Source of the DNA: a virus
Length of the DNA stretch: 31,339 bases
IMG/VR virus record: IMGVR_UViG_3300045739_000126
Coordinates: 1 to 31,339 of that record
Reading direction: 5' to 3' (one strand)
Shown: positions 5,337-5,786 of the stretch, piece after piece
How the letters are laid out: each line of letters starts with the position of its first letter
Numbering within the stretch: position 1 is the first letter of the stretch
Made by a program: the position numbers and the translations under genes
Notes under the pieces: generated by a model
The model's input: only the letters and a program-made list of their open reading frames with translations
Databases searched by the model: none
Told to the model about the DNA's origin: nothing

Positions 5337-5365
5337 TTCGCATAACTAAGTAATAGGTCTATAAT
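5337..5365 (+). promoter_or_regulatory. candidate promoter of the riboswitch-like leader
   Basis: A consensus -10, TATAAT (5360-5365), has TTCGCA (5337-5342, 4 of 6 matches to TTGACA) 17 nt upstream. A start near 5372 would place the first aptamer base (5373) at the 5' end of the RNA. Confidence 0.55.
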
Positions 5366-5372
5366 GACCTTA

Positions 5373-5416
5373 CGTTCATCTGATATATTCAGACGGAAGT
5401 AAGCCGACTCGGAACG
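5373..5416 (+). ncRNA. glutamine-riboswitch-like aptamer, copy A
   Basis: Closing stem P1 is CGTTC (5373-5377) with GAACG (5412-5416). An inner hairpin pairs TCTGA (5379-5383) with TCAGA (5389-5393), followed directly by CGGAAGTAAG. The order CGTTC-AT-hairpin-ACGGAAGTA-GAACG matches my memory of the glnA and Downstream-peptide glutamine riboswitch classes found in cyanobacteria and cyanophages. In those RNAs glutamine binding controls the following gene. Family membership needs a covariance-model check. Confidence 0.7.
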
Positions 5417-5419
5417 GAT

Positions 5420-5460
5420 CGTTCATCCCATTAGGGACGCAAAAGCCGACTGAAGGAACG
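5420..5460 (+). ncRNA. glutamine-riboswitch-like aptamer, copy B
   Basis: A second copy of the same plan, 3 nt after copy A: P1 CGTTC (5420-5424) with GAACG (5456-5460), inner hairpin TCCC (5426-5429) with GGGA (5434-5437), then CGCAAAAGCCGACTGAAG. Both copies share CGTTCATC and AGCCGACT. Copy B has GACGCAAAAG where copy A has GACGGAAGTAAG, so it may bind ligand differently. The ribosome site TTAAGGAG of the next gene is 17 nt downstream. Confidence 0.65.
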
Positions 5461-5492
5461 CTCTTTAGCCTCAGAATTAAGGAGAAAACCTA

Positions 5493-5654
5493 ATGTCTAA
5501 AGTTGTATATCGTGGTATTGAGTATGATACTGCGAATCGTCCAAATCAAACATTTAAGATTGAACCGCATGTAGAAATCTACCGTGGTACTATGTTTTAC
5601 GTTGATGAAAACGGAAACAAACTGTCTATGCAACGAGCAGGAGGACAGAAATGA
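5493..5654 (+). CDS. YRG-motif microprotein (DUF4278-like), 53 aa
   Basis: Starts MSKVVYRGIEYDT and contains a second copy of the motif, IYRGTMFYVDE; ends RAGGQK. YRG repeats are the hallmark of the cyanobacterial DUF4278 family and of the short peptides found behind Downstream-peptide glutamine riboswitches; as I recall, the PII-interacting regulator PirA belongs to DUF4278. TTAAGGAG (5477-5484) gives a strong ribosome site. The position directly behind the aptamers suggests expression tied to glutamine, and a role in tuning host nitrogen metabolism is a reasonable but untested inference. The stop overlaps the next start (ATGA). Confidence 0.75.
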   Translation: MSKVVYRGIEYDTANRPNQTFKIEPHVEIYRGTMFYVDENGNKLSMQRAGGQK

Positions 5655-5752
5655 ATACTTACTTCGTTCGTTATCTTAAGAGAAAAGCAAAGAAGGAAAG
5701 TCTTCTTAAGGCTGCACAACTAAATATGGCAAAGCAACCACAAGTTGCATAA
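5651..5752 (+). CDS. basic microprotein, 33 aa
   Basis: Starts MNTYFVRYLKRKAKKESLLK and ends AKQPQVA. The ATG overlaps the stop of the YRG gene by 4 nt, so it is coupled to it and shares its promoter and aptamers. One amphipathic, lysine-rich helix is expected. A terminator begins 4 nt after the stop, so the transcript seems built for just these two small genes. Function unknown. Confidence 0.6.
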   Translation: MNTYFVRYLKRKAKKESLLKAAQLNMAKQPQVA

Positions 5753-5755
5753 TCT

Positions 5756-5786
5756 AAAGAGGGGACTTGACTCCCCTCTTTTTTTT
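5756..5786 (+). terminator. strong intrinsic terminator
   Basis: AAAGAGGGGA (5756-5765) pairs perfectly with TCCCCTCTTT (5772-5781) over a 6-nt loop, with eight T residues at 5779-5786. It closes the two-gene riboswitch unit. Confidence 0.92.

Follow-up and report, generated by a model that had tools for sequence, protein, structure and literature searches.

A composite glutamine-I-type riboswitch, probably formed by two interlocked copies, ahead of a small YRG gene in a cyanophage-like genome

The window (the whole stretch of viral DNA that was analysed, a record of 31,339 nucleotides, or 31.3 kb, whose nearest isolates are T4-like phages of Synechococcus) carries two glutamine-riboswitch-like copies (5373-5416 and 5420-5460; these and all features below are on the + strand), which are 3 nt apart and precede a small YRG gene, as a preliminary description of the sequence had it. 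With a probability of roughly 0.7, the two are the interlocked halves of one composite glutamine-I-type riboswitch that governs the start of the YRG gene, and the P2 loops of its relatives are slots for other genes. Judged by comparison of sequences, the element most likely responds to glutamine by controlling translation of the YRG protein.

Copy 1 consists of CGTTC (5373-5377), the P2a hairpin (5379-5393, with arms TCTGA, 5379-5383, and TCAGA, 5389-5393), CG followed by GAAGTA (5394-5401), AGCCGACT (5402-5409) and GGAACG (5411-5416). The linker GAT (5417-5419) joins it to copy 2, which consists of CGTTC (5420-5424), the P2b hairpin (5426-5437, with arms TCCC, 5426-5429, and GGGA, 5434-5437), CG followed by CAAA (5438-5443), AGCCGACT (5444-5451), GAA (5452-5454) and GGAACG (5455-5460). 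Assignment to the glutamine-I (glnA) family is borne out by copy 2 (5418-5464), which matches Rfam RF01739 at 40.4 bits (E 1.3e-5 in a scan of the whole window) against a membership cut-off of 35 bits. Copy 1 (5373-5416) alone reaches 25.3 bits (E 0.0013 in a 221-nt search), under the cut-off, and the glutamine-II (Downstream-peptide) model RF01704, which overlaps copy 2 (5417-5468), gives 23.3 bits where 33 are needed, so that the scan with both models that had been proposed succeeded for the glnA model and copy 2 only. The GAA and GGAACG at the 3' end of copy 2 fit the RF01739 consensus GAAGGAACG; CG plus GAAGTA in copy 1 also fits, whereas CG plus CAAA in copy 2 departs from the consensus GGAAGUA. 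Copy 2 deviates at the GGAAGTAAG site, as had rightly been remarked, and the difference proved informative. In RF01739, AAGUA and GAA, the two sides of loop E, flank P3 inside one copy; here neither copy has both sides and the two together have one, so the composite, and not each copy, is the candidate member of RF01739. The three-way junction of the family (P1, P2 and P3) is likewise formed by the two-copy composite, according to covariation in relatives, and not by a copy alone.

The copies belong to a compact unit consisting of a predicted sigma-70-like promoter (5337-5365, TTCGCA and TATAAT 17 nt apart, 10 of 12 consensus matches), the aptamers, the YRG gene (5493-5654), a 33-aa basic ORF that overlaps the YRG stop (5651-5752, MNTYFVRYLKRKAKKESLL...; a similar ORF occupies the equivalent place in the DNA of relatives) and a predicted intrinsic terminator (5756-5781, a 10-pair stem and a T run). 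The unit is flanked by a SpeD-type gene (PF02675) on one side and a ThyX-type gene (PF02511) on the other, and the array of phage S-PM2 is likewise flanked by SpeD and Td. The 53-aa YRG protein is DUF4278-like: it matches phrog_5049 (E 5e-8) and, weakly, PF14105 (DUF4278; 19.7 bits, E 0.0011, under the gathering score of 25.3). The YRG context noted earlier extends to nearly every array, the protein being encoded directly after the array in 121 of 150 and more internally in nearly all the others, with a few tails too short to tell. Transcription is predicted to start at about 5372, directly ahead of P1, and a -10-like element occurs at the equivalent place in many relatives. Upstream of copy 1, an inverted repeat (AGGTC-TATAAT-GACCT, 5355-5370) encloses the -10 box; its arms vary among relatives yet remain complementary (GTGTTA..TAACAC, GGTATG..CATACC and others), with arms of at least 6 in 82 of 128 arrays versus about 10 expected from shuffles, and it may be an operator, a cruciform or an RNA hairpin. 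Three freshwater arrays (L021, L040 and L072) have CTAAATA ahead of copy 1 in place of the TATAAT box, which resembles T4-type late promoters, so expression of the array may differ in timing between phages, early in some and late in others.

That related phages keep both units, a check put forward earlier, was borne out by at least 144 distinct arrays, taken from viral contigs searched by the YRG protein and then by the junction pattern, plus a few fetched phage records; this collection required the standard P1 and the AAGTA element and left the P3 strands free. Two forms are distinguished: the long form, which is that of the window, with 8-nt P3 strands, and the short, marine form with 5-nt strands (AGUCG/CGACU). 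A 40-nt short-form junction query matched 427 GenBank phage records and a 35-nt long-form query matched 44 (both counts include redundant records), all of them cyanophages or marine viruses by name, and the array is present in more than 400 GenBank cyanophage records, again counted with redundancy. Glutamine riboswitches in cyanophages are already known (PMC9964418), and the S-CREM1 record carries a glutamine riboswitch annotation at such an array. A set of 349 genomes of the cyanobacterial order supplied 30 loci, none of them a host tandem array, and a sample of the genus Prochlorococcus gave a single match, one single-cell genome with the same kind of array; in this assembly (L210, G001 contig 3), the array sits on a 189-kb contig that is probably cyanophage and not host DNA. 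A single-copy glutamine-I RNA of phage-like sequence (L459, G283), with an ordinary P3 (AGCC-AGAG-GGCU), is possibly an ancestor-like form.

The two P3 strands, which follow AAGTA in copy 1 and xAAA in copy 2, are complementary to each other. In the window, AGCCGACU at 5402-5409 pairs with AGCCGACU at 5444-5451, with two C-A mismatches among the eight positions, and this helix is by itself computed to be weak. Among long-form relatives, the closing pair is U-A in 26, G-C in 12, A-U in 6 and U-G in 1 of the 45 distinct rows, all 45 being paired, as are 101 of 101 arrays; the other end is A-U, G-C or G-U with a single exception, and at positions 3 and 6 A-C or C-A mismatches predominate. The covariation score of the shared P3 is 0.236 versus 0.097 for shuffled rows, far over the slid controls, and was reached in none of 500 shuffles. 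In the short marine form (AGUCG with CGACU), all five positions are paired in 35 of 35 arrays, with one switch from G-C to A-U. In five arrays (L029, L068, L110, L125 and L132), copy 1 reads GGACGACG or GGACGG and copy 2 has CC instead of CU, a joint change at the two ends of the shared P3. A tree-based count gave at least 22 joint changes; it is not taken as a number of events, because the gene tree is weak and recombination, which is likely, inflates the count. Covariation shows one P3 helix common to both copies: the conserved AGCCGACT provides the two strands of this inter-copy helix and does not form a hairpin within each copy.

Single aptamers in genomes of the cyanobacterial order have AAGUA, P3 and GAA within one molecule, with an ordinary P3 hairpin, and the single-copy RNA of G283 keeps the same arrangement; in the phage arrays, AAGUA occurs only in copy 1 and GAA only in copy 2. 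In the window, 5394-5401 contains the conserved G of the junction together with the AAGUA that makes the 5' side of loop E, the 3' side (GAA) is at the start of 5452-5460, and the CG and CAAA of the inner junction (5438-5443) have no loop E. With the halves of loop E split between the copies, pairing of the shared P3 brings them together into one canonical loop E, which suggested that P1 too is formed between copies. An outer P1 would pair CGTTC of copy 1 (5373-5377) with 5456-5460, within the GGAACG of copy 2, and an inner P1' hairpin (5411-5424, GAACG-GAU-CGUUC) would pair 5412-5416 with 5420-5424 around a loop at 5417-5419.

Natural variants of P1 agree with this arrangement. Two loci fetched by protein alone (L427 and L434) have CAACG at the 3' end of copy 1 and CGTTG at the 5' end of copy 2, the other two strands being standard. 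A scan that selected non-standard bases on both sides of the inner pair, whatever their combination, and set no condition on the outer strands yielded 67 distinct arrays with a complementary C-G in all; their outer strands are mutually complementary wherever both are readable, four having co-changed to CGTTT/GAAACG. A relaxed recount over all loci (231 arrays) found outer CGTTC/GGAACG with inner GGAACG/CGTTC in 143, the same outer pair with inner GCAACG/CGTTG in 78, outer CGTTT/GAAACG with inner GCAACG/CGTTG in 10, and no fourth combination. P1 would be mismatched in 88 of these 231 marine arrays if local and in none if swapped. When 30 distinct rows of the short form are fitted to the nested twin, 99.1% of cells are paired, with 11 compensated pairs, a level that none of 500 shuffles reach, and local P1s are broken in both copies in 17 of the 30. 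This covariation shows that the P1 strands are swapped between copies in the marine relatives. A search of the window's long-form lineage for P1 variants gave no hits, so in the window itself homology and energy point to the swap (computed fold energies of -21.4 for the nested and -18.9 for the local fold); when the longer window leader is folded freely, the minimum-energy fold is a different one, not the twin.

The pairs of both P2 hairpins covary, and in many relatives their loops hold small ORFs: ORF A in the loop of P2a (46 of 144 arrays) and ORF B in that of P2b (87 of 144), with all four combinations of filled and empty loops; neither loop of the window holds one. The nested ORFs usually begin 3-5 nt past CGTTCA, their start codon lying within the 5' arm of P2 or next to it, and the arms vary yet stay paired around the ORF (TCTTATG/CATAAGA, TCTCATG/CATGAGA, TCCCATG/CATGGGA), with just three contiguous pairs left in the P2 arms of some ORF A'. 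ORF A stops in the 3' arm of P2 or a few bases ahead of it. The frame of ORF B crosses the 3' arm and the aptamer core, and its stop adjoins P1; a stop at TAG in P2 was considered wrongly, as the frame continues to TGA in GACTGAAGGAACG. Median dN/dS is 0.32, 0.26 and 0.33 for three ORF families and below 1 in all pairs used, which shows, by comparison of sequences, that the nested ORFs are under coding selection. ORF B corresponds to PHROG 504, of unknown function, is mostly annotated as a hypothetical protein in isolates, and is modelled by AlphaFold2 as three helices (pLDDT 76); ORF A had no family match in Pfam/PHROG-type family searches. At 5437-5453, in the copy 2 core, the window reads GAC GCA AAA GCC GAC TGA (D A K A D stop). 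In relatives these conserved codons end ORF B; the window lacks that ORF, and the codons may be a scar or ancestral sequence. One ORF family (MLSLALIFFSHV...) is found in the copy 2 loop of L096 and L120 and in the copy 1 loop of L132, as if genes move between P2 slots. Three different ORF families (L217-L296, L297-L376 and L377-L456) have a common layout of a hydrophobic start and two cysteines about 30 residues apart, and their products are possibly exported, disulfide-linked helical hairpins. A tmRNA nested in the aptamer, an idea taken from the Melnitz paper (PMC9004378), was discarded when no tmRNA was found near the array in AG-345-P14.

The nested ORFs might be passengers, accepted by P2 loops that take any insert and not regulated by the switch, as the free length of the P2 loop in the family and the occurrence of all four filled and empty combinations would allow. 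This is less likely than not. Among 240 loci retrieved with the ORF proteins alone, limited to the 80 closest in each family, the aptamer 5' half is directly ahead of the ORF start in 240 and the 3' half is present in 234; the start codons lie in or right beside P2, and the frame of ORF B extends into the aptamer core. In the short form, moreover, a GGAG in the linker occurs in 29 of 30 arrays with ORF B versus 0 of 7 plain-hairpin arrays (Fisher p 8e-7), so that the nested gene's ribosome site is likely in the P1' loop; this motif is absent from the linkers of long-form arrays.

As for the architecture, two junctions with local P1s might kiss through their AGCCGACU strands, the shared helix being then a pseudoknot. 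Such an arrangement would account for the inter-copy covariation of P3 and is compatible with the window's lineage, where P1 is invariant, but the P1 covariation of short-form relatives is that of swapped and not local strands, and the linker, at least 3 nt in every array although the parse allowed 1-2 nt, behaves like the hairpin loop of P1'. This reading, with its local P1s, was abandoned once the P1 variants turned up in relatives, and is given little credence.

Slightly less credible still is the side-by-side arrangement of the preliminary description, two independent tandem glutamine-I aptamers, each with its own P1, P2 and small P3, giving a steeper response. Each half does resemble RF01739, the identical strands would let local P1s form in the window, and known tandem glnA RNAs have been linked to more-digital control (PMC2864571). 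However, the P3 hairpin within each copy is broken in both copies in 18 of 45 rows, with no compensatory changes, while the pair between the copies is kept in every one; one side of loop E is missing from each copy; the 88 marine arrays are mismatched under local P1s; and the nested fold has the lower energy in 37 of 37 short-loop arrays, by a mean of 3.4 kcal/mol. The array therefore differs from a tandem riboswitch, in which each aptamer closes its own P3, and in marine short-form relatives it also lacks the own P1 of each aptamer, P1 being invariant in the window's lineage. Covariation of P3 and P1 rules out side-by-side aptamers for the relatives, and two consecutive, separately folded aptamers are not supported, given the inter-copy P3 helix and the P1 strands swapped in relatives. 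An alternative fold joining both copies into one unrelated structure had been named as grounds for giving up the glutamine interpretation; a joined fold was indeed found, but its core is still of the glutamine-I type.

How the composite riboswitch would control the YRG gene is suggested by the strand CUGAAG (5450-5455 in the window, complementary to CUUUAG at 5463-5468). In marine arrays this candidate switching strand (CUGAAG, CUAAAG or CCGAAG, consisting of the end of P3, GAA and G) is complementary to a hexamer that overlaps the YRG Shine-Dalgarno sequence. Across 75 distinct tails, one position is A-U in 24, G-C in 22, G-U in 23 and mismatched in 6, and at another position C never faces A. 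Since the C/U base in question is also a partner of copy 1 in P3, only one of the two pairings can form at a time, the pattern of a switching strand. This Shine-Dalgarno pairing model fits the marine forms; the window has a different anti-Shine-Dalgarno hairpin (5461-5484, CUCUUUA at 5461-5467 with UAAGGAG at 5478-5484), which belongs to the minimum-energy fold, dominates the computed folding (Shine-Dalgarno bases unpaired with a probability of at most 0.03 in free folding) and is not kept in all relatives. That copy 2 is a glutamine-II-like pseudoknot, made of P1 and of CUGAAG with the downstream CUUUAG, and copy 1 a degenerate helper, is the least probable reading: the weak RF01704 match, the pairing with 5463-5468 and the covariation of the strand with the Shine-Dalgarno region in marine forms speak for it, but the match is under both the RF01704 cut-off and the copy's own RF01739 score, the downstream complement is absent from several freshwater relatives (L059, L083), and the inter-copy helix is left unexplained.

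In the composite riboswitch, the outer P1, formed by the 5' strand of copy 1 and the 3' strand of copy 2, would combine with P2a, loop E (AAGUA from copy 1, GAA from copy 2) and the shared P3 into a canonical glutamine-I junction, and the far end of P3 would lead into a second, inward-facing junction with P2b and the P1' hairpin, closed by the 3-nt linker. In this nested twin, the two junctions would stand back to back, and the inner one, having no loop E, may not bind glutamine. Glutamine would stabilise the outer core and thereby decide whether ribosomes start on the YRG (DUF4278-like) gene; in the marine model, it would keep the switching strand inside the aptamer and free the YRG start site. 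The YRG gene would probably be turned on by glutamine, as with host glutamine riboswitches, which are reported to be ON switches (Klahn et al. 2018, as reviewed in PMC6316151 and PMC6698751). In relatives whose P2 loops serve as gene slots, folding of the switch would hide the nested start and shut the nested gene, which would give opposite outputs from one RNA. Glutamine binding, polarity and reciprocal output are thus predicted features. The complete scheme, in which interlocked strand-swapped sensors let glutamine close the nested starts and open the YRG start so that the phage picks its protein by host nitrogen, is offered tentatively, at somewhat less than even odds.

Group I introns also carry ORFs inside peripheral loops, the RNA being a ribozyme and the gene encoding a mobility enzyme. 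The arrays are like them in having a protein gene in a peripheral loop of a structured RNA, but unlike them the RNA is a predicted ligand sensor and the proteins are tiny and of unknown function. With glutamine-I (RF01739) they share P1, P2, CG ahead of loop E, AAGUA/GAA, the nitrogen or YRG gene context, and the ends of P1, which PMC6698751 describes as touching the ligand in the solved structure; unlike glutamine-I, the array copies have one P3 in common, their P1 strands are swapped (in marine relatives), their loop E is split, and genes lie inside P2 in relatives. Marine metagenomic glnA RNAs in tandem were reported by Weinberg et al. 2010 (PMC2864571) and are probably the same element; the excerpted text of that paper describes two RNAs in tandem and no shared P3, P1 swap or nested ORFs. 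Like glutamine-II (Downstream-peptide, RF01704), the arrays have CGUUCA...CGCA...GGAACG and small YRG/DUF4278 proteins downstream. Glutamine-II was crystallised as a strand-swapped dimer (PMC6698751, PMC7357161), but it has a pseudoknot architecture, and its swap is between molecules in the crystal, unlike the swap within one RNA proposed here. The tandem glycine riboswitch likewise has two homologous aptamers with a short linker and mutual contact (PMC7357161); its aptamers have their own P1 helices and make tertiary contacts, whereas in the array both copies contribute strands to common helices. Neither a shared P3 nor swapped P1 strands nor nested genes are described in the literature examined, although Ames & Breaker 2011 and Klahn et al. 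2018 may mention nested ORFs, and that literature yielded no case of a protein gene placed within a riboswitch aptamer. These three features, as read from sequence, would thus be new, whereas cyanophage glutamine riboswitches and tandem glnA RNAs are known.

If this reading is correct, a common feature of T4-like cyanophages that has been taken for two ordinary riboswitches is a strand-swapped twin sensor, a natural covalent case of the strand swapping hitherto seen between riboswitch molecules in crystals. The choice of a phage between small proteins according to host glutamine would become testable, and the arrays would offer a genomic way into a standing question, the regulation of glutamine synthetase in marine picocyanobacteria.
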